From a virus, in IMG/VR virus record IMGVR_UViG_3300013137_000046, positions 1 through 38,339 of that record: a stretch of 38,339 bases of DNA; one strand, given 5' to 3'. A program made the position numbers and the translations under genes. Every line of letters starts with the position of its first letter. Positions within the stretch are counted from its first letter, which is position 1. Below, piece after piece: positions 5,333 through 31,227 of the stretch. The notes beneath the pieces are model-generated. The model was given only the letters and a program-made list of their open reading frames with translations, made no database searches and was not told the origin of the DNA.

Positions 5333-5509
5333 ATGAATTTAATTTGTAAGTTATTTGGTCATAAATTAAAAATTAAAAGTTTATTTGATAAAGAGACAAG
5401 AAAATTAGGGAAACATATATTAGAGTATAAAAAAGGTTCATTTTTAAAATGTTTAAAATGCGATAATGAAATCTCTCTTTATTGTTCAAGATGTAGTGAG
5501 AAATTATGA
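5333..5509 (+). CDS. zinc-ribbon mini-protein, cassette copy 1
   Basis: 58 aa. It opens with MNLICKLFGHKL and ends with CLKC ... CSRCSEKL, so two CxxC knuckles sit in the C-terminal half. The N-terminal C-x3-GH and C-terminal C-x-RC-x-EKL are shared with the gene at 6315-6521, and the first part with 7572-7748. The stop overlaps the start of a second conserved gene that begins MNEIPKLR. GGTGATTAGATATG gives the start. This is the first gene of a duplicated two-gene cassette. Confidence 0.7.
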   Translation: MNLICKLFGHKLKIKSLFDKETRKLGKHILEYKKGSFLKCLKCDNEISLYCSRCSEKL

Positions 5510-5832
5510 ATGAAATACCTAAATTAAGATATTGTGGAATGTTTGAATGTGATTTAGATGATATAGATATGGATGCAGAATATAAAGATAATATTGGATT
5601 AATAACCTGTATATCTAAAAATAGTTACAAAGAGTGTTTAGCATTTTGGGAAAAATACAAGGATAACTGTACTATGTTTTGGAATGATTTTGGAGATAAA
5701 TATATATTTGACAATTTTATAAAAGATATTCGTTATAATGACAAAGGTATTATGTTTGATTGTAAAATAAATGGTGTTGAATGGAGAGATTGGTTACACA
5801 ACCTAATATTTGGCAAGAGTAGTGATTATTAA
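5506..5832 (+). CDS. MNEIPKLR-family hypothetical protein, cassette copy 1
   Basis: 108 aa, acidic, not a known family. It shares with the gene at 6518-6784 the N-terminus MNEIPKLR, the central SYKECLAFWEKYKDN block (SYEEVLACWDKYKDN in the other copy) and the C-terminal WRDWLHNLIFG block (YRDWLHDKLFQ). ATGA overlap with the zinc-ribbon gene; the sequence GAGAAATTATGAATGAA around this junction is identical at the second copy, which shows recent tandem duplication. Confidence 0.7.
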   Translation: MNEIPKLRYCGMFECDLDDIDMDAEYKDNIGLITCISKNSYKECLAFWEKYKDNCTMFWNDFGDKYIFDNFIKDIRYNDKGIMFDCKINGVEWRDWLHNLIFGKSSDY

Positions 5833-6318: not shown

Positions 6319-6521
6319 AATTAAAATGTATGGTAGTTGGTCATGATATTAGAGAAGTTCTTGTACTTAATGTTTTAGGAAAAGGAATTTTTAGAGAATT
6401 TATAGATAAAGAAAAGTTTACTGATAAAGATGAAAAATGGATTAAAAAATATGACGATGGAAAATACTCAATTATAACTTATAAATATAAAATTTGTAAA
6501 AGATGTGGTGAGAAATTATGA
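6315..6521 (+). CDS. zinc-knuckle mini-protein, cassette copy 2
   Basis: 68 aa. N-terminal MKLKCMVVGHDI matches the C-x3-GH start of copy 1, and it ends ICKRCGEKL, matching CSRCSEKL. Only one CxxC plus the N-terminal Cys/His remain, so zinc binding would use C5, H10 and the C-terminal pair. GGTGAAAAAATG gives the start. ATGA overlap with the MNELPKLR gene that follows. Confidence 0.7.
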   Translation: MKLKCMVVGHDIREVLVLNVLGKGIFREFIDKEKFTDKDEKWIKKYDDGKYSIITYKYKICKRCGEKL

Positions 6522-6784
6522 ATGAATTACCAAAATTAAGATTTATTAGACCTTTAACAGAAAGTACGACAAGATTTGAAGGTTTTGTTTATGAAGATAG
6601 TTACGAAGAAGTTCTTGCCTGTTGGGATAAATACAAAGATAATTTAGGTTTATTTATGATTGATTACACTGAATTATATAATCAATGGGAAATATATCGT
6701 AAAGAAAAAGGTATGTATGTTAGAGATAATTTTATTTTGTATAGAGATTGGTTACACGATAAATTATTCCAGTTGGAGGGATAA
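6518..6784 (+). CDS. MNEIPKLR-family hypothetical protein, cassette copy 2
   Basis: 88 aa, shorter than copy 1 (108 aa) but with the same three blocks: MNELPKLR, SYEEVLACWDKYKDN and YRDWLHDKLFQ. The middle has diverged. Preceded by the same junction sequence as copy 1. Function unknown. Confidence 0.7.
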   Translation: MNELPKLRFIRPLTESTTRFEGFVYEDSYEEVLACWDKYKDNLGLFMIDYTELYNQWEIYRKEKGMYVRDNFILYRDWLHDKLFQLEG

Positions 6785-6786
6785 AC

Positions 6787-7554
6787 ATGGTAGATGAAAA
6801 AGGTAATACAGGAGATAGGAACACAGGAGATGGGAACACAGGAGATTGGAACGTAGGAGATGGGAACTCAGGAAATAGGAACACAGGAGATTGGAACGTA
6901 GGAGATGGGAACTCAGGAAATAGGAACACAGGAGATGGGAACTCAGGAGATAGGAACACAGGATATACTAACGCAGGAGATTGGAATGCAGGAGATTATA
7001 ACGTAAGAGATAGGAACACAGGAGATAATAACGCAGGATATAATAATGCAGGATATGATAACGCAGGAAATAGGAACACAGGAGATAAGAACGTAGGAGA
7101 TGGGAACACAGGAGATTGGAATACAGGACATTTTAATACAGGTTATTTTAATACTAATGAACCTAAAGTAAGAATTTTCAACAAAGAAACAGAGATAAAA
7201 AGAGAAAATATATTATTTCCAGCTTATTTATATTTTCATTTAGTAGAATGGGTTTCAAGTAAAGATTTATCAGATAAACAGAAAGAAGAACACCCAGGTC
7301 ATAAAATATTAGGTGGTTGGTTAATATCTTATAATTACAAAGAAGCAGTGATTAAAAATTTTAATAAAATATGTGATAAAGAACAAGCAGAACAAACTAT
7401 TAAATTACCAAACTTTAATTATGAGATTTTTGAGGAAATAACTGGCATAACAAAAGAAATGTTAGATGCTAAAAGAGGTATTATAACTAATGAGACCAAT
7501 AATTACTCAAATATTGAAATAGTTATTAATGGGATTAAATATAAGCGAGTTTAA
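6787..7554 (+). CDS. N-x-G pentapeptide-repeat protein
   Basis: 255 aa. Residues 6-119 consist of about 22 tandem five-residue units of the form [ND]-x-G-[DNY]-x (GNTGD, WNVGD, YNNAG and so on), the pattern of the Pentapeptide_2 type, which folds as a right-handed quadrilateral beta-helix. The C-terminal 130 residues form a separate domain with FPAYLYFHLVEWVSS ... EEHPGHKILGGWL ... LPNFNYEIFEEITGI. I recall this arrangement from pentapeptide proteins of bacterial gut phages. The DNA itself is a 15-bp tandem repeat (ACAGGAGATrGGAAC), prone to gain and loss of units. Start GGAGGGATAAACATG. Function unknown; DNA mimicry is only a possibility. Confidence 0.85.
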   Translation: MVDEKGNTGDRNTGDGNTGDWNVGDGNSGNRNTGDWNVGDGNSGNRNTGDGNSGDRNTGYTNAGDWNAGDYNVRDRNTGDNNAGYNNAGYDNAGNRNTGDKNVGDGNTGDWNTGHFNTGYFNTNEPKVRIFNKETEIKRENILFPAYLYFHLVEWVSSKDLSDKQKEEHPGHKILGGWLISYNYKEAVIKNFNKICDKEQAEQTIKLPNFNYEIFEEITGITKEMLDAKRGIITNETNNYSNIEIVINGIKYKRV

Positions 7555-7838: not shown

Positions 7839-8270
7839 ATGATTAAGATATTAAATTTATACGCTGGAATTGGTGGAAATAGGAAATTGTGGTCTGGAGA
7901 TATAGAAGTAACTGCTATTGAATATAATCAAGAAATTGCAGATATATATAAACAATTTTTTCCTAATGATAAAATTATAGTATGTGATGCACACGAATAT
8001 TTATTAGAACATTATAAAGAATATGATTTTATTTGGGCGTCACCACCTTGCCCAAGTCATAGTAGAATAAGATTATATAGTGCTGTTGCAAGAGGACAAA
8101 ATGAGCCTATTTATCCAGATATGAGATTATATCAAGAAATAATATTTTTACAATATCATTTTAAAGGTAAATGGGTTGTTGAAAATGTTAAAAGTTATTA
8201 CGAACCTTTGATAAAACCTTTTGATTTTGGGAATCATTATTTTTGGGCTAATTTTAATATAGTTCTATGA
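7839..8270 (+). CDS. DNA cytosine-C5 methyltransferase, N-terminal (catalytic) part
   Basis: 143 aa. Motif I is LNLYAGIGGNR (cofactor S-adenosylmethionine), motif IV ASPPCPSHSR with catalytic C71, and motif VI VVENVKSYY. These identify a C5-methyltransferase of the small phage type. The frame ends after FWANFNIVL, and the missing C-terminal portion including motif X is encoded by the next gene in another frame, overlapping as ATGA. Either a two-subunit enzyme or one gene broken by an indel. It could mark virus DNA against restriction or compete with host enzymes; no matching endonuclease is adjacent. Confidence 0.85.
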   Translation: MIKILNLYAGIGGNRKLWSGDIEVTAIEYNQEIADIYKQFFPNDKIIVCDAHEYLLEHYKEYDFIWASPPCPSHSRIRLYSAVARGQNEPIYPDMRLYQEIIFLQYHFKGKWVVENVKSYYEPLIKPFDFGNHYFWANFNIVL

Positions 8271-8606: not shown

Positions 8607-8864
8607 ATGGGTATAATTAATAAAATAATTAAAGAAAATAATTTGGTTTTAAAAAGTAAAGAGCAAATTAATAAAATAAAAGAAAATAAAGAAATGATTA
8701 AAAAAGATGGAAAAGGAAATATAATTAATTATAAAGATTCTGATGGTTTTGAATATTGGAAAGAATATGATAATAATGATAATGTAATTAATAAATTGGA
8801 ATTAGTTAGTGGGAGATATTATTTAAATAATAAATTAATGATTAAAAAAGATAGTGATTATTAA
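8607..8864 (+). CDS. hypothetical protein
   Basis: 85 aa, basic and Asn/Lys-rich. A helical N-terminus is followed by a strand-rich part with DGKGNIINYKDSDGFEYWKEYDNNDNVI, which resembles the repeated Asp/Asn/Tyr motifs of small phage proteins with beta-hairpin repeats (GNxxxYxDSDGxExxxxYD). GTGATTAGATATG before the start. TAATG overlap with the next gene. Confidence 0.6.
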   Translation: MGIINKIIKENNLVLKSKEQINKIKENKEMIKKDGKGNIINYKDSDGFEYWKEYDNNDNVINKLELVSGRYYLNNKLMIKKDSDY

Positions 8865-9193
8865 TGAAGCCAGAATTAGAAGAATATAGTATACTAAAAT
8901 TAATTAAAGATATAGATAATGATATGTTAATATGTGGTGAATCAACACGAGAAATACCTATTGTTTATAAAAAAGAACAAGTAAAAGCTTGTATTGATTG
9001 GTATTTTGAGTATTATGATATGCCTGATTTGTTTTGGCGTGAGAATAAAGAGTATCAAAGTGAGCTTAAAGAATTGGGTATGTGGGAAGAATTTGTAGAT
9101 GGTACTCTTAATAGGACTTGTAAGATAGATGTATATAATATGTGGTTAAAAGAAAAAGCATTTAATGAATTATACAAGGAAGATAATAAATGA
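8864..9193 (+). CDS. hypothetical acidic protein, distantly like the MNEIPKLR family
   Basis: 109 aa. The spacing of KACIDWYFEYYDMPDLFW and a later VYNMWLKEKAF recalls the CLAFWEKYKDN ... WRDWLH blocks of the 5506 and 6518 products, so it may be a further diverged paralogue. The identity is low and the call is tentative. TAATG start coupling and ATGA end overlap. Confidence 0.55.
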   Translation: MKPELEEYSILKLIKDIDNDMLICGESTREIPIVYKKEQVKACIDWYFEYYDMPDLFWRENKEYQSELKELGMWEEFVDGTLNRTCKIDVYNMWLKEKAFNELYKEDNK

Positions 9194-16784: not shown

Positions 16785-18014
16785 ATGTGGAACAAATTTG
16801 ATAATAATGTTGATATATTTTACCCTAGTCTCAAAGTTGGAGTAACTAATTCTAATACCAAAGTGGAAGTATTTAAGAAAGGAGATGCTATAGAACCTGA
16901 GTACTTTGGAATATCTAGTGTTGGTGGATATAGTAAAGGAGCATCAAAATCAAATAAGAATACTAATTCAATTAATCCATTTGACAAATATGATGTTGAT
17001 ATAGACCAAGTAGAATATTGGTATTGTAATGATCCAGTAGTATTTGGTACTACTAATAGAACTGCTGACTTTGTAAGTTCAACAGGTTATGAAGTAAGAA
17101 ATGATGATAATGGAGAAGTTGGTGGTTTTTTTAATAGAATGTCATTTCCATTTTTTATTAGAAATGCTGCAATGAATGTATTATTATATGATAATTCATT
17201 CATGGATTTAAGAGAAGATTATCCAAAAGTTATAAGTTCAAAAGGAATGAGTATTAATTTTGATGAATGGGGAAATATAGTTTCATATACCCAAGTAATA
17301 CCTACATCAAATAAGAAAATAGAATTACCTAAAGAACAAATTGTTTATACTAAGATGAATGCTGTAGACTCAGGGTTAGTTGGAGTAAGTTATGTTATTC
17401 CGTTGAAATCATATTTAGAAGCTAAGTCTTCAGTTGAGAATTATACTTCTGAGTTCTTTAATAGAAATGGAAGTCCAAGATTACATTATATTATTAAAAC
17501 AAAGAATACTGAATTAGCAAAGAGAATGAGAGAAAAACTAAAGAAGATGAAACCTCACGAAGATATAATTAGTAATGAAGATTTAGAAATTAAATCTACT
17601 AGTCAACCAATTACTGATATGATGTTCAAAGAATGGTTATCTTACTTGAATAGATTAGTTATTATAGGTATTGGAACTCCAGAAATTATTGCTGGATTCT
17701 CTGAAGATAGTAATAAAGCTAATTCAAGAATACAATTACAAGGATTCAAATATAGAATAAAGGCTATACAGACATTATTAGCAAATGTAATTAATACACA
17801 AATTATACCTAAATACTTTCCTAAAAGTAAAGCATATATAGTATTTAAAGATTTAGATAAAGAAGATTCAAACTTAAGTGCAATAAATAGAAATAAGATT
17901 GCTCAGACATTAGCACAATATGTAAAGAATGGAATAATGTCACCAGAAGAAGCAAAACAAATTGCAGATTATGATTTGAAAAACATAACATCAGATATGG
18001 ATGTAGCGGAGTGA
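16785..18014 (+). CDS. portal protein
   Basis: 409 aa. After a Ser/Asn-rich N-terminal arm, it shows the portal core: the wing with SFMDLREDYPK and WGNIVSYTQVIP, the clip/stem region SYLEAKSSVENYTSEFFNRNGSPRLHYIIKT and the C-terminal crown helices with IGTPEIIAGFSEDSNKANSRIQLQGFKYRIKAIQ, typical of HK97/SPP1-type phage portals. Twelve copies form the ring at the head vertex through which DNA passes. GTGATTTAATATG start, late element just upstream, and 4-base relation to the protease gene. Confidence 0.92.
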   Translation: MWNKFDNNVDIFYPSLKVGVTNSNTKVEVFKKGDAIEPEYFGISSVGGYSKGASKSNKNTNSINPFDKYDVDIDQVEYWYCNDPVVFGTTNRTADFVSSTGYEVRNDDNGEVGGFFNRMSFPFFIRNAAMNVLLYDNSFMDLREDYPKVISSKGMSINFDEWGNIVSYTQVIPTSNKKIELPKEQIVYTKMNAVDSGLVGVSYVIPLKSYLEAKSSVENYTSEFFNRNGSPRLHYIIKTKNTELAKRMREKLKKMKPHEDIISNEDLEIKSTSQPITDMMFKEWLSYLNRLVIIGIGTPEIIAGFSEDSNKANSRIQLQGFKYRIKAIQTLLANVINTQIIPKYFPKSKAYIVFKDLDKEDSNLSAINRNKIAQTLAQYVKNGIMSPEEAKQIADYDLKNITSDMDVAE

Positions 18015-21890: not shown

Positions 21891-22439
21891 ATGGCAGAAA
21901 GAAGATATGTTGATTTTGGGTCTAACTTAACTGGTAAGTTATACCTAGCAAAAAAAGGAAGTAGTGGATCAGGTACTGAAATACAAGCAACAATAAAAAG
22001 TTATGATGTCTCTGGTGGAGAAAAAGCAATGGAACAAAAGAATTATATTGCAAGTAATTATGCAATTATCCAAAAACCAGCATCATTCTTAACTTTAAAA
22101 TCAACTGTTGATTCTGATAAAAGTGCTATTGATTTCTATGAAATTTTAAATGGTACTAAAACAACAGATAGTGGGGTAGATACAGTAACTGGCGGAGGAA
22201 CACAAAGTTATTTCAGATTAGTATACGAAGTAGAAACTGAAAATGCTTCAACAAGTAAAACAGAAGTAAGAAGATGGACTTGGGTTAATGCATTAGGATC
22301 AGCACACGGTGTTAAATTCCCTAGTGAAGATGCAATAGAGTTTGATATAAGTTTGATTTGTGGATTAACTGATTTCACATTTAAACAAACATTAGATAAA
22401 ACATTAAGTCCATTACCTGCAATAGGAAATTATAGTTAG
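21891..22439 (+). CDS. major tail tube protein
   Basis: 182 aa from ATG 21891, placed by GAGGTGAGCCGA; a GTG at 21882 is also in frame. Beta-rich with FGSNLTGKLYLAKKGSSGSGTEIQATIKSYDVSGGEKAMEQKNY and an Ile/Phe-rich C-terminal strand EFDISLICGLTDFTFKQTL. Its place just before the chaperone G/GT genes and the tape measure, and its size, fit the tube subunit. Confidence 0.8.
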   Translation: MAERRYVDFGSNLTGKLYLAKKGSSGSGTEIQATIKSYDVSGGEKAMEQKNYIASNYAIIQKPASFLTLKSTVDSDKSAIDFYEILNGTKTTDSGVDTVTGGGTQSYFRLVYEVETENASTSKTEVRRWTWVNALGSAHGVKFPSEDAIEFDISLICGLTDFTFKQTLDKTLSPLPAIGNYS

Positions 22440-22463: not shown

Positions 22464-22823
22464 ATGAAGATAGAGTATAAACCAAAGGATAGAAGAACTA
22501 TAAAAGTTGGAGAATTGGAATTTAGGATTTCAACTCCAAAAACAAAAATACTTCCTAAGATAATTGAAGTTAAACAAATAGCTGATATGAGTAAGATGGG
22601 TGGTCGTGATCCTAAAGCTATGGAAAAGTATATTGAAATATTAATTGATATATTACAATATAACTATTCTGAAAATTCAAGAGAAGAAATAGAACTTATG
22701 ATTAACGATAACTTAGAAGCATTCATGGAAAAATATTTTGAATTTTTAGGTGTAAGTAAAGAAGAAGAAGAATCATTCCGTAGACAAGCAGAGTACTACG
22801 AGAAGCGTGGTCAAAAAAACTAA
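22464..22823 (+). CDS. tail assembly chaperone G
   Basis: 119 aa. After an N-terminal strand pair (RRTIKVGELEFRISTPK) it is helical and acidic, ending EEESFRRQAEYYEKRGQKN. Position between tube protein and tape measure is that of lambda gpG. The last codons CAA AAA AAC followed by TAA form a -1 slippery site, and a second frame continues as T. GGAGAGTGAATCTCAATG is the start. The chaperone coats the tape measure before tube assembly. Confidence 0.8.
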   Translation: MKIEYKPKDRRTIKVGELEFRISTPKTKILPKIIEVKQIADMSKMGGRDPKAMEKYIEILIDILQYNYSENSREEIELMINDNLEAFMEKYFEFLGVSKEEEESFRRQAEYYEKRGQKN

Positions 22824-22996
22824 TAATGGGTTCATCTTTTACAGGGAACCCGTATGAATGGTTTGCATGGTTTATTTTTACACTTGCAAAATCATTTAAT
22901 ATAAATCCACAAGAAATATTAGAGATGGATTTAGATTTATCTCTATGTATGTACAACTGTATGGTAGAACAAGCAAAGAAACAAGCTGAGAAGTGA
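22464..22996 (+). CDS. tail assembly chaperone GT (-1 frameshift fusion)
   Basis: A slip at 22814-22820 would join the G frame to the -1 frame from 22820 to a TGA at 22994-22996, giving about 177 aa. The T part is a 56-codon open frame (from an ATG at 22826) reading MGSSFTGNPYEWFAWFIFTL ... NINPQEILEMDLDLSLCMYNCMVEQ, the type of small helical T domain that binds the tape measure. Reading T alone from its own ATG is possible, but there is no GGTGA site there. Confidence 0.8.
22814..22853 (+). promoter_or_regulatory. programmed -1 ribosomal frameshift signal
   Basis: The heptamer A AAA AAC (22814-22820) is in the correct phase of the G frame, followed at once by the G stop TAA (22821-22823). 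A stem of ATGGGTTC (22826-22833) with GAACCCGT (22846-22853), including one G-T pair and a 12-nt loop, begins 5 bases after the heptamer. Heptamer, phase, spacer and stem all match classic frameshift sites. Confidence 0.85.
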
Positions 22997-23000
22997 AATT

Positions 23001-24446
23001 ATGGATCATCAAGTAAATATAGTATTCAATGCAAAAGTAGATAACTTAGATGCTAGTTTAAATAAGGTTGAACAGGGTATATCAAAAGTATCTGAATCTT
23101 CTCGTAAATTAATGGCAGATATGAATTACTTAGGTATTGGATTCTTTGGTATGCAAATACAACAAACATTTCAAGGTATATTAACTTCTGGTATAGAAAC
23201 TTTCTTAGGATTATCTGCAGGTACAGACTTAATGTCAGAAAACTTAGCAGCATTAACTGCTAATTTTAATTATTTTAAATTTGTTGTAGGATCTACTTTA
23301 TTAGAAGTATTTGATCCATTAATTGGTAAACTAGCTAATATGTTAGAGTGGTTTAATAATCTTGATTCTGATACACAAAAAGTAATTGTTACAGTAATGG
23401 CTGCAACAACTGCATTTGGTTTTATGCTAATGCAAATAGGGTTTATTGTTATTGGAATACAATCATTAGCTTCTGCATTTGGTGCTGCAGAAGGTGTAGG
23501 ATTAACAGGAGCTATAGGTATTGCAACAAAAGGATTAATACCATTTTTAGCTGCATTAGCAATATTATATGTTTTATTAGATGATAATTCTAAAAATACT
23601 TCTAAGTTAAGAGCAGAGTTTGGTAAAGATGTTCCTGGAGAAGGATTACTAAAGTATGTTGGATCTTTAGGAGATTTGTTATCTGGTATAATGAATATAT
23701 TTGCAGAAGTAATACGAGGTGTGCAAGTATTAGGTATTGCATTTGGATATGGTATAAGAGTATTAATGGATTATATAGTTACCTTTGGTGAAACTATGAG
23801 TGAATCATGGGGTAATATATGGGGTTCATTAAAGTATATTGTTATTAAAGCAATGAGTGGGGTACTTGATTGGTTTGCTAATAAACTACAAGGATTGATT
23901 AATATCTTAGATGCTTTAGGTATAGGAACAAAAAAGTTACAATCAGTTCTTAACATATTAAAAGGAATGAGCGAAGCTATTACTACAATAGATATGAAAA
24001 CAAATACATTCACAGCTAACTTTGAAAAGAACTTAACAGATAGATTAAATACAACAAGAGAAAGAGCTGCATTAACTTTATATAAGATATATGGTGATTA
24101 TGATAAAGTAGCAACAGTACTTGGTGGTCTAGGTGGATTTGGTGAAAATGTAACTGCTTCAACAGCTAGAGGATTTGTTGCTAGTGCAATGGGTGTTAAT
24201 ATGCAAACCGCAACTATGACAGGTAATCCATTAAGAGATGCTGCTATGAATGGTAATTGGATGTTTCCAAATCAAGGAAATACTAATATAACTACTATTA
24301 ATGTAAACGGATTAAATCAAAGTAATGAAAGTGCATTGACTGCTGCTTTAGGTGGAAATGCAGCATTAGCAAGATCTTATAATACATTCTTAGAGGATAT
24401 AAATAAATCAGTATATGGTTCTAACAATGTAAATACTAATAGGTGA
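23001..24446 (+). CDS. tape measure protein
   Basis: 481 aa. The N-terminus MDHQVNIVFNAKVDNLDASLNKVEQGISKVSESSRKL is the standard tape-measure opening. Membrane-like helices follow at about 130-160 (VIVTVMAATTAFGFMLMQIG) and 175-193, then more helices and a Gly/Asn-rich end. At about 0.15 nm per residue this gives a tail near 70 nm. It sets tail length and helps DNA entry. There is no lysozyme or peptidase domain. GAAGTGAAATTATG start. Confidence 0.9.
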   Translation: MDHQVNIVFNAKVDNLDASLNKVEQGISKVSESSRKLMADMNYLGIGFFGMQIQQTFQGILTSGIETFLGLSAGTDLMSENLAALTANFNYFKFVVGSTLLEVFDPLIGKLANMLEWFNNLDSDTQKVIVTVMAATTAFGFMLMQIGFIVIGIQSLASAFGAAEGVGLTGAIGIATKGLIPFLAALAILYVLLDDNSKNTSKLRAEFGKDVPGEGLLKYVGSLGDLLSGIMNIFAEVIRGVQVLGIAFGYGIRVLMDYIVTFGETMSESWGNIWGSLKYIVIKAMSGVLDWFANKLQGLINILDALGIGTKKLQSVLNILKGMSEAITTIDMKTNTFTANFEKNLTDRLNTTRERAALTLYKIYGDYDKVATVLGGLGGFGENVTASTARGFVASAMGVNMQTATMTGNPLRDAAMNGNWMFPNQGNTNITTINVNGLNQSNESALTAALGGNAALARSYNTFLEDINKSVYGSNNVNTNR

Positions 24447-24451
24447 ATATA

Positions 24452-25120
24452 ATGAAGGATACTATAATATATGTTTTAGGTAGTGATACACAATTATCAG
24501 GAACAGTTTCTGTTACTAATAATACTACAAGTATTAGTACTACATCTAACTTAACATCTCAATTAACTGATGGATCGGTAATAAAAATTGATTCATATGT
24601 TATGTCAGTTAAAGCAGTAACATCTGGTACCATAACTTTGTATTCACCATATGAAGGTACGACTGGTTCTGGCAAAACAATATACAAATTGACAGGATAT
24701 GAATTGTCTGCAGTTAATATGTTACAGCCAAGTTTTACATTTTCTAATACTGTTGAAGAAGGTATTAATGCTACTTATCCTATAACAGTTACACCTACAG
24801 GAGATACTACTCCAATAATGACTATTGGTGGAGATATGTTCATGAATGCTAATCAAAGATTAGTAGATCATTATGGTGTTCAGAAGAAACCAAATGATAT
24901 GTCATTATCTTGGTTTTTTGTTAATAATAGAAAATCTAAATTCATTATTTATCCTTATAAGTTAGCATTAAATAATCCAATAACTGTTTCTGATTCAACA
25001 AGAAATTATTTTGTTGGAGTATTAAATAGTTTACAATTTGCTCCTAGTGTTCAATATATGGGAGATATGGTTGGAGATGTAACATCATATAATGTAACAT
25101 TTAAATTAACTGGTGAGTAG
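24452..25120 (+). CDS. distal tail protein candidate
   Basis: 222 aa from ATG 24452 (AGGTGAATATA before it). An Ig-like or hub-like N-terminal portion rich in Thr/Ser strands (GTVSVTNNTTSISTTSN) precedes a conserved-looking core TPIMTIGGDMFMNANQRLVDHYGVQKKPNDMSLSWFFVNNRKSKFIIYPYKL and an ending VGDVTSYNVTFKLTGE. Directly after the tape measure is the usual place for the Dit-like protein. Family assignment is by position. Confidence 0.6.
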   Translation: MKDTIIYVLGSDTQLSGTVSVTNNTTSISTTSNLTSQLTDGSVIKIDSYVMSVKAVTSGTITLYSPYEGTTGSGKTIYKLTGYELSAVNMLQPSFTFSNTVEEGINATYPITVTPTGDTTPIMTIGGDMFMNANQRLVDHYGVQKKPNDMSLSWFFVNNRKSKFIIYPYKLALNNPITVSDSTRNYFVGVLNSLQFAPSVQYMGDMVGDVTSYNVTFKLTGE

Positions 25121-29154: not shown

Positions 29155-29604
29155 ATGGTAAAATACAATTACAGAATGCCAAATAAGTTATATCAAATTA
29201 AAGAAGGTAAGTATCCGATAGGATCTACTTTCTATGATTCTAATGGTAATGCTAAATATAATTATACTACTAATGGATTAGTATATGATGGTACTACAAC
29301 TAAAGTAGTGTATGAAGAAGTTGCTCTAGTTAAAGATAGCATTTGTCCTGAAGGATATGATGCAGTTACTGTTCCTAGTGATGGTTTATTATTTATTGGT
29401 AGTACTAAAAGTACAAGTGGTACTGATGGGCTAACAGGTATAAATCACACACACACTTGGCAAAATGATAGATATTTAGGTTCTTCAGGAATATCAGGAG
29501 TTGTTATAGGTACTACTGGAATGTCTACTGAAACAGACAGTTATAATTATATAAAATACAAATTGTGTGTTTCAAATAATAAACGTAGAGGATTTTGTGA
29601 GTGA
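29155..29604 (+). CDS. collar-like fibre-tip protein A1 (one Cys-HxH-Cys module)
   Basis: 149 aa. N-terminal strand region (KYPIGSTFYDSNGNAKYNYTTNGLVYDGTTTKVVYEE) followed by one module: ICPEGY (C64), HTH (98-100) and KLCVS (C138). His-x-His in a Gly/Thr-rich setting recalls the metal-binding HxH of phage collar/receptor-binding tips (T4 gp12 style). It is paired with B1 next door, and the pair is repeated downstream. Confidence 0.65.
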   Translation: MVKYNYRMPNKLYQIKEGKYPIGSTFYDSNGNAKYNYTTNGLVYDGTTTKVVYEEVALVKDSICPEGYDAVTVPSDGLLFIGSTKSTSGTDGLTGINHTHTWQNDRYLGSSGISGVVIGTTGMSTETDSYNYIKYKLCVSNNKRRGFCE

Positions 29605-29609
29605 TATTT

Positions 29610-30146
29610 ATGGTAGATTATTATTATGTTTTTTCTGATGGTAGTGATTGTCCTACAGGTTGGACTTTGGATACAACATATTCAGGTAAGGGAATAATGA
29701 CTGCAATAGCATCATTAAAGACTACTGGTGGAGTATTTACACATAGTCATGATGTTGGTACAGGTAATGTTGATAATGGCGCAGGATCAGCATACAGAAA
29801 AGCATTAGATAATTATACTATAAATCCAGTTAGATATAATAAAGTTATATGTAAGATAAACCAAACACTATTTAATCCTAATGGAGTTCATTCATTTTTT
29901 ATGGACGCAAATAATTGCCCTACAGGATATAGTACAGAAAATATAAGTTATTATGTTGTTGTTGGAAATACACCTGGAGTTAATGTTGCAACAACTCATA
30001 ATCATACTGCTACAGTGACTATAGGAACTACTGCTGATTCAGGATCAGGAGGAATATTAGCTAGTGGGGCAAGTAATCCTACAACATCTTCAAGTACAGC
30101 TATGTCAGCACCATATGTTAAATTAAAACTATGTATTAAGAAATGA
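29610..30146 (+). CDS. collar-like fibre-tip protein B1 (two modules)
   Basis: 178 aa from ATG 29610 (GAGTGATATTT before it; the GTG at 29601 belongs to that site). Module 1: CPTGW (C14), HSH (45-47), VIC (C81). Module 2: CPTGY (C103), HNH (130-132), KLC (C175). Opens MVDYYYVFSDGSDCP, close to the 30640 product's MTTYYYIFAQNGTCP, so these are paralogues. The regular Cys-HxH-Cys order suggests disulfides or metal sites holding a trimer tip. Confidence 0.7.
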   Translation: MVDYYYVFSDGSDCPTGWTLDTTYSGKGIMTAIASLKTTGGVFTHSHDVGTGNVDNGAGSAYRKALDNYTINPVRYNKVICKINQTLFNPNGVHSFFMDANNCPTGYSTENISYYVVVGNTPGVNVATTHNHTATVTIGTTADSGSGGILASGASNPTTSSSTAMSAPYVKLKLCIKK

Positions 30147-30151
30147 TATTT

Positions 30152-30643
30152 ATGACATACTATAATATACAAAAAGTACCTAGTGATAAACAAATACCAA
30201 ATATAGAATTAGAAGGTAAGTATCCTAATAATACTGTATTCATAGATGATGATGGTAATAGATTATATCATTATAAAAATAATACTTTATATTATTATGG
30301 TCAAACAGATAAAGTTTTAGGTTCAGTAGATATACCTTCAGTTGTAATGTGTAATGATTCTTCTTGTCCTACAGGATATACTGAATATACTCTAGATGAA
30401 GATAGAGTATTAATGTTAGGAACTCCAGGATATTCGGGTACTTATTCTTTAAATTATGGTTACCCGCATACACATAATATTGCTTATGGATATAATGCTA
30501 GAGCATCATCAGGTTTATGTGCTAGACGTGCAGCCGATATTGCATCAGAATCAGCAAATATATATTTAAATCAATATATAAAATTTAGATTGTGTATATC
30601 TACAGTTAAAACATATACTAAAAATAAAGGTGTATTAGAATGA
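30152..30643 (+). CDS. collar-like fibre-tip protein A2 (one module)
   Basis: 163 aa from ATG 30152 (an ATG nine bases upstream is in frame; the sequence before 30152 mirrors that before 29610). Same plan as A1: KYPNNTVFIDDDGNRLYHYKNNTLYYYGQTDKVLGSV, then CPTGY (C72), HTH (106-108), RLCIS (C148). Extra Cys at 67 and 123. Paralogue of the 29155 product; ends overlapping the next gene as ATGA. Confidence 0.65.
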   Translation: MTYYNIQKVPSDKQIPNIELEGKYPNNTVFIDDDGNRLYHYKNNTLYYYGQTDKVLGSVDIPSVVMCNDSSCPTGYTEYTLDEDRVLMLGTPGYSGTYSLNYGYPHTHNIAYGYNARASSGLCARRAADIASESANIYLNQYIKFRLCISTVKTYTKNKGVLE

Positions 30644-31227
30644 CTACTTACTATTATATATTTGCACAAAATGGAACTTGCCCTAAAGGATTTAGTTCTG
30701 ATTCAACTTATAATAATAAAACATTATCAATAAATGGTTCAACATTTGGATCTACTGGGGGAAACGCAACTGTAACTCATAATCATAATCTAAGTACTTT
30801 TCCTGTATTTAATGTTCATTCGTATAATGATATTGATGTAATGTATAATTATTTAGGTAATACTAATGTTATTTTAGATCCTAAAACAATAAAGTTTACA
30901 TTATGTAAAACAGATAAATTACATATAGTAAATACATTTACAAAAGGATCAATTATTATATTAAATGATACTACTAACATATGTCCTACAGGTTGGGAAA
31001 AGATAGTTAGTCAAATAAAAAATGTTGTTGCTACTAATGGAACAGTTGGCGAAGTAACTCAAAGTAATAATCATAAACATACTGTTAGTTATCCAGAATC
31101 TAATGCCACTGCGATATCAGGTACATACCCTAGATTGAGTTATGTTGCATATTCTGGTGATTCAGATTATACAGATGTAGATACTATTCTGCCTTATGTA
31201 ACAGTAACTTTATGTAAGAAATTATAA
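30640..31227 (+). CDS. collar-like fibre-tip protein B2 (two modules)
   Basis: 195 aa. Module 1: CPKGF (C14), HNH (47-49), TLC (C89). Module 2: CPTGW (C115), HKH (145-147), TLC (C192). Paralogue of B1. With A1, B1 and A2 it brings the cluster to six modules. The tandem A-B-A-B order shows a two-gene duplication followed by divergence, as expected for host-contact proteins. Confidence 0.7.
   Translation: MTTYYYIFAQNGTCPKGFSSDSTYNNKTLSINGSTFGSTGGNATVTHNHNLSTFPVFNVHSYNDIDVMYNYLGNTNVILDPKTIKFTLCKTDKLHIVNTFTKGSIIILNDTTNICPTGWEKIVSQIKNVVATNGTVGEVTQSNNHKHTVSYPESNATAISGTYPRLSYVAYSGDSDYTDVDTILPYVTVTLCKKL

Follow-up and report, generated by a model that had tools for sequence, protein, structure and literature searches.

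In phage lambda, two tail assembly chaperones, G and GT, are made by −1 ribosomal slippage just before the tape measure gene. The slip occurs on a bacterial ribosome at the heptamer G GGA AAG and is experimentally proven (PMC5009743). Experimental −1 frameshifting in archaea is confined to one cellular gene, fucA1 of Saccharolobus solfataricus, which encodes an enzyme and uses A AAA AAT. The viral cases are predictions in a handful of viruses of halophiles (PMC8211752). They include archaeal G/GT frameshifting in HVTV-1 and in HCTV-1, -2 and -5 (PMC5009743; PMC8211752). A −1 site has also been predicted before the tape measure gene of the archaeal siphovirus Hardycor1 (HrrHc1_110/115; PMC7911831).

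We analysed a virus record of IMG/VR, 38 kb in length (38,339 nt) and very AT-rich; this whole stretch of DNA is referred to as the window. Like lambda, it has a putative pair of chaperones, connected by a predicted −1 slip, just before the tape measure gene. Its heptamer differs, being A AAA AAC. Hardycor1 shares the placement before the tape measure gene but has G GGA AAT, which does not lie directly at the stop codon. The site in the window is viral, whereas that of fucA1 is cellular. The arrangement in HCTV-2 (Haloarcula californiae tailed virus 2; HCTV2_40/41) is that of the window; A AAA AAC adjoins the stop codon of G and the −1 frame leads into T. Here, G ends CAG GAA GCA AAA AAC TGA (EAKN*), with the heptamer at 24643, and the chaperone is already annotated as joined. 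HCTV-2 is a GC-rich virus of halophiles and the likeness is one of site geometry. Because HCTV-2 has this geometry, the type of site is not new, and the window is one more predicted archaeal G/GT case. An earlier note on this DNA had proposed that it could extend documented −1 frameshifting in archaea. This holds only in part, since archaeal G/GT frameshifting had already been predicted in four viruses, and one of them, HCTV-2, has this heptamer in this position. What the window adds is a predicted case in a very AT-rich virus.

The junction between G and T

All features of the window given by coordinates in this section are on the + strand. G (22464–22823) is an ORF of 119 aa by standard decoding, ending GQKN*, with a strong GGAG/GTGA site at its start. 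It is a probable tail assembly chaperone. The match to chaperone families is weak (phrog_8595, E=0.002) and there is no match in Pfam. A single-sequence structure model of G had low confidence (mean 57); it was too poor to use and its matches are meaningless. The 3′ end of G reads GGT CAA AAA AAC TAA. Hence, the slippery heptamer A AAA AAC (22814–22820) is in the phase of G, with zero codons between it and TAA (22821–22823). Its codons in the zero frame are AAA (22815–22817) and AAC (22818–22820). The −1 frame is open from 22820 for 58 codons, up to TGA at 22994–22996, and encodes LIMGSSFTGNPYEWFAWF...AEK. We refer to this extension as T (22820–22996). A −1 slip would join G and T in a predicted GT fusion of 177 aa.

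The order of genes is tail protein region, G, T and tape measure, with T in the −1 frame relative to G. The gene before G (21891–22439) is where the major tail (tube) protein would be expected; this assignment is by position, and there is a weak match to the tail family phrog_33244 (E=0.007). The gene after T (23001–24446) encodes 481 aa and matches the tail length tape measure protein family phrog_1272 (E=1.8e-12). The heptamer, open frame and stem described in the earlier note are all correct. The same note called the sequence T-like; T had no match to any family model searched.

We assessed how much of this could arise by chance. In the 52 gene models of the window there are 79 in-phase XXXYYYZ heptamers (9,852 codons), six of them at most ten codons from a gene end. 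This is about the chance expectation. A heptamer of any kind near a gene end proves little, and we rejected it as evidence by itself. In the same 9,852 codons, A AAA AAC occurs in phase once, at the G/T junction. Its AAC is an unusual choice of Asn codon for this genome (AAC 13%, AAT 87%). The openness of the T frame alone is not significant because this compact genome has many long −1 extensions; in 12 genes they exceed 100 codons past the stop. The codon-usage score of T is +0.17 per codon in the −1 frame, equal to that of G (+0.17), compared with −0.64 and −0.54 in the other frames. Thus, only in the −1 frame does the codon usage of T look like that of a coding sequence.

An 8-bp stem (22826–22833/22846–22853), with one G-U pair, begins 5 nt past the heptamer. 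The stem-loop (22826–22853) covers an ATG in the T frame. The 40 nt 3′ of the heptamer fold at −11.7 kcal/mol. Only 1 of 200 shuffles folds as well (z −3.0), and 0.6% of 40-nt segments of the genome reach an equally good fold. The stem alone is modest evidence because 8-bp stems at the same spacing occur at 3.8% of codon positions.

Archaeal relatives and a chaperone family of Bathyarchaeia

The window has the head-tail hallmark genes for TerL, portal, HK97-type capsid, tail completion and tape measure. We used the portal gene (16785–18014, + strand; Pfam Phage_portal, E=1.8e-17) to trace relatives. It matches 11 of 50,697 phage records, all of them haloarchaeal viruses, with ~20% identity. 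For TerL, archaeal HGTV-1 has the lowest E-value among the phage matches listed (5e-24). Consistent with an archaeal reading, start sites are of the GTGA type, with GGTG or GTGA upstream of 34 of 53 starts. In archaeal genomes, portal relatives with 20–26% identity were detected in 27 of 398 Thermoproteota and 11 of 262 Nanoarchaeota. Weak relatives occur in 8 of 295 Halobacteriota, 6 of 194 Thermoplasmatota and 3 of 228 Asgard genomes, and none in 152 Methanobacteriota; rates across archaeal groups are not strictly comparable, a profile having been used in the later searches. None of the archaeal genomes searched has a close copy of the portal. The archaeal look that the earlier note saw in the start sites is supported by the GGTG/GTGA counts. 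On these similarities the host is likely archaeal, the portal search having covered phage records and archaeal genomes. Searches of viral contigs by G, TerL, tape measure, capsid and portal found no close relatives of the window; a degenerate TerL scan of such contigs gave relatives of 21–29% only.

Following the portal matches, we reached a Thermoproteota provirus (L245/L316) in which A AAA AAC TGT TAA precedes a T frame with a match to the tail assembly chaperone family phrog_9001 (E=3e-9). Searching the 398 Thermoproteota genomes with phrog_9001 identified 29 T domains in 14 genomes. All 29 are in the −1 register behind a homologous G, and each junction has a slippery heptamer in phase (23 T TTT TTA, 1 T TTT TTG, 4 A AAA AAC and 1 A AAA AAA). 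Where 16S was found in the carrier genomes, the nearest named relatives are Bathyarchaeota (86–92%). One genome (G235) has 16S and the chaperone locus on a single 2.15-Mb contig, so the locus is not contamination. Scanning viral contigs identified 377 relatives of the Bathyarchaeia G. We fetched 80, and all 80 have the heptamer (71 T TTT TTA, 1 T TTT TTG and 8 A AAA AAC). For these contigs we infer Bathyarchaeia hosts from similarity. Pooling both sets, the heptamer is present at 109/109 loci (L296–L324 and L338–L417), comprising 94 T TTT TTA, 2 T TTT TTG, 12 A AAA AAC and 1 A AAA AAA.

A tail tube gene (Phage_tube_2, E=1e-16) precedes the Bathyarchaeia G. The structure model of this G, of high confidence (91), resembles tail assembly chaperones (E 1e-4 to 4e-2), including the HCTV-1 and HHTV-2 proteins. 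Comparison of the model with PDB gave nothing significant. As in the window, this is an archaeal G–T pair in the −1 register with an in-phase heptamer, which is A AAA AAC at 12 of the 109 loci. Unlike the window, most loci have T TTT TTA, and the zero frame usually runs on for 34–46 codons. Profiles of the Bathyarchaeia G and T had best matches in the window at E=0.6 and 2.2, none of them at G or T. Hence, for want of detectable homology, conservation in this family is evidence for the use of such sites by archaeal tail chaperones and not for conservation of the site of the window.

The Bathyarchaeia loci bear a signature of selection on the heptamer itself. We compared 89 distinct T-type sequences, taking the synonymous difference among pairs with the same residue. 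The codon before TTT specifies varied residues (Arg, Ala, Ser, Asn and others) and always ends in T. Phe is TTT and never TTC; Leu is TTA in 87 sequences and TTG in 2. By comparison, TTT makes up 45% of Phe codons and TTA 16% of Leu codons in these loci. Synonymous difference is 0.00, 0.00 and 0.04 at the three heptamer codons, against 0.20–0.80 at 19 codons upstream. Constraint extends to some codons downstream of the heptamer, which is expected in a region coding in both frames. These loci share ancestry and do not represent independent events; at least one switch must have occurred, given that two heptamer types share a single phase. At 75 of the 109 loci, no ATG, GTG or TTG occurs in the T frame between its opening and the tenth codon beyond the site. 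The Bathyarchaeia T can therefore hardly be made alone. We found no conserved downstream RNA structure in this family, which weakens the case for the stem in the window. An internal Shine-Dalgarno stimulator upstream of the heptamer was also considered and rejected; it is present in some loci, is not general and is not clearly better than in synonymous shuffles.

Routes to a T product

Our preferred interpretation, which we consider highly probable, is that G is a tail assembly chaperone and that GT arises from a −1 slip by a minority of ribosomes. The virus would be siphovirus-like, most likely with an archaeal host. Most ribosomes would halt at TAA 22821 and release G. In the remainder, tRNA-Lys and tRNA-Asn on AAA AAC would slip back one base to AAA AAA, with help from the adjoining stop codon and perhaps also from the stem. 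These ribosomes would continue from CTA 22820 for 58 codons, giving the fusion. By analogy with lambda, G may form a coat on the tape measure protein, and GT may recruit tail tube subunits through its T part. The lambda-type reading of the earlier note is supported by gene order, the weak phrog_8595 match and the identity of the next gene. It is further supported by the in-phase heptamer adjoining the stop codon, the coding usage of T in the −1 frame and the state of the first ATG of T, described below.

Alternatively, T could be a separate protein, with ribosomes that finish G at TAA 22821 re-initiating at ATG 22826 (TAATAATG). The heptamer would then be a by-product of an A-rich C-terminus. 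This ATG (22826–22828) is in the T frame 2 nt past the stop codon of G, and starting there costs the T-frame product only 2 residues. Stop–start coupling needs no ribosome-binding site, and abutting ORFs without a heptamer do precede the tape measure gene in some archaeal proviruses (L433). However, the ATG has no GGTG, GTGA or GGAG upstream and is base-paired within the stem. Its pairing with the 16S tail is weak (duplex energy −3.8 kcal/mol compared with a median of −6.8 kcal/mol). The heptamer is also completed by AAC and not by the preferred AAT. Finally, T lacks a start codon at most Bathyarchaeia loci, as noted above. We regard re-initiation as unlikely.

Slippage by RNA polymerase is a still weaker candidate. 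The A7 run at 22813–22819 could gain one A in part of the mRNA, fusing the frames with no slip by the ribosome, and such an insertion gives an identical frame change. Runs known to slip in transcription are usually longer. Moreover, HCTV-2 and the L245 provirus have only A6, and the Bathyarchaeia family mostly T6. The Bathyarchaeia runs are always in the X XXY YYZ phase, though polymerase slippage needs none, and two different heptamer types share that phase. This makes a transcriptional origin very improbable. A lost base in the assembly (A7 for A8), with G and T really one unbroken gene, has in its favour a homopolymer at the junction of an IMG/VR contig but is scarcely credible, given that two frames with a slippery heptamer are the rule in tailed viruses (PMC5009743) and that the two-frame layout is found at 109/109 archaeal loci, with 0 fused.

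Slippery sequences in archaea and additional observations

The predicted slip at the G/T junction of the window stands beside a family with more than 100 candidate sites, in which the heptamer bears a signature of selection, its two types are interchangeable and no downstream structure is conserved. Two open-access papers on viruses and proviruses of Bathyarchaeia make no mention of frameshifting. The sites are apparently undescribed, and this is provisional because most subscription papers fell outside the search. The family offers a way to examine which slippery sequences are effective on archaeal ribosomes, and whether these are bacterial-like or eukaryotic-like. With so many sites available, slippage by archaeal ribosomes becomes far easier to test.

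Homologous T domains (~42% identity) are present in the Bacillus phages Riggi and Jayan, behind in-phase A AAA AAG (L442:644–650 and L443:650–656, respectively). The archaeal loci (n=109) have T TTT TTA or A AAA AAC, with the few variants counted above, and never A AAA AAG. A AAA AAC is also found in the archaeal chaperones of the window and HCTV-2, which stand apart from the Bathyarchaeia family. It is possible, if on balance somewhat doubtful, that the set of −1 slippery sites used by archaeal ribosomes is eukaryote-like. If so, the heptamer switch would be a consequence of how archaeal tRNAs are modified and of the properties of archaeal ribosomes. HCTV-5 has been reported with G GGA AAG, which counts against this reading. 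In Riggi and Jayan, the two reading frames are annotated as two separate genes without a frameshift.

Similar-looking sites at L238/L239 (A AAT TTC) and L232 (C CCT TTC) were set aside as only possible cases, the large gene after them matching ABC-type ATPases and not tape measures. This ATPase-like gene (phrog_293/phrog_11143; L238:6924–8276 and L232:4237–5652) follows directly on a G–T-like pair, in the place of the tape measure. The provirus-like Nanoarchaeota locus L433 (12579–13234) has two abutting small ORFs before a tape-measure-sized ORF of 1369 aa, and no slippery heptamer was found there. It is possibly an archaeal chaperone pair made without −1 slippage.

We also noted features elsewhere in the window. 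Four tandem, related-looking ORFs (29155–31227), with CPTGW/CPEGY and HTH-like stretches, lie in the tail-fibre region and are perhaps duplicated receptor-binding or fibre parts. The protein encoded at 6787–7554 has a long run of pentapeptide-type NTGD/NAGD repeats. At 7839–8270 there is an apparently truncated C5 cytosine methylase, represented by its N-terminal third (PF00145 positions 1–112 of 324). Three small ORFs (5506–5832, 6518–6784 and 8864–9193) resemble paralogues, sharing W-x-KYKDN-like stretches.
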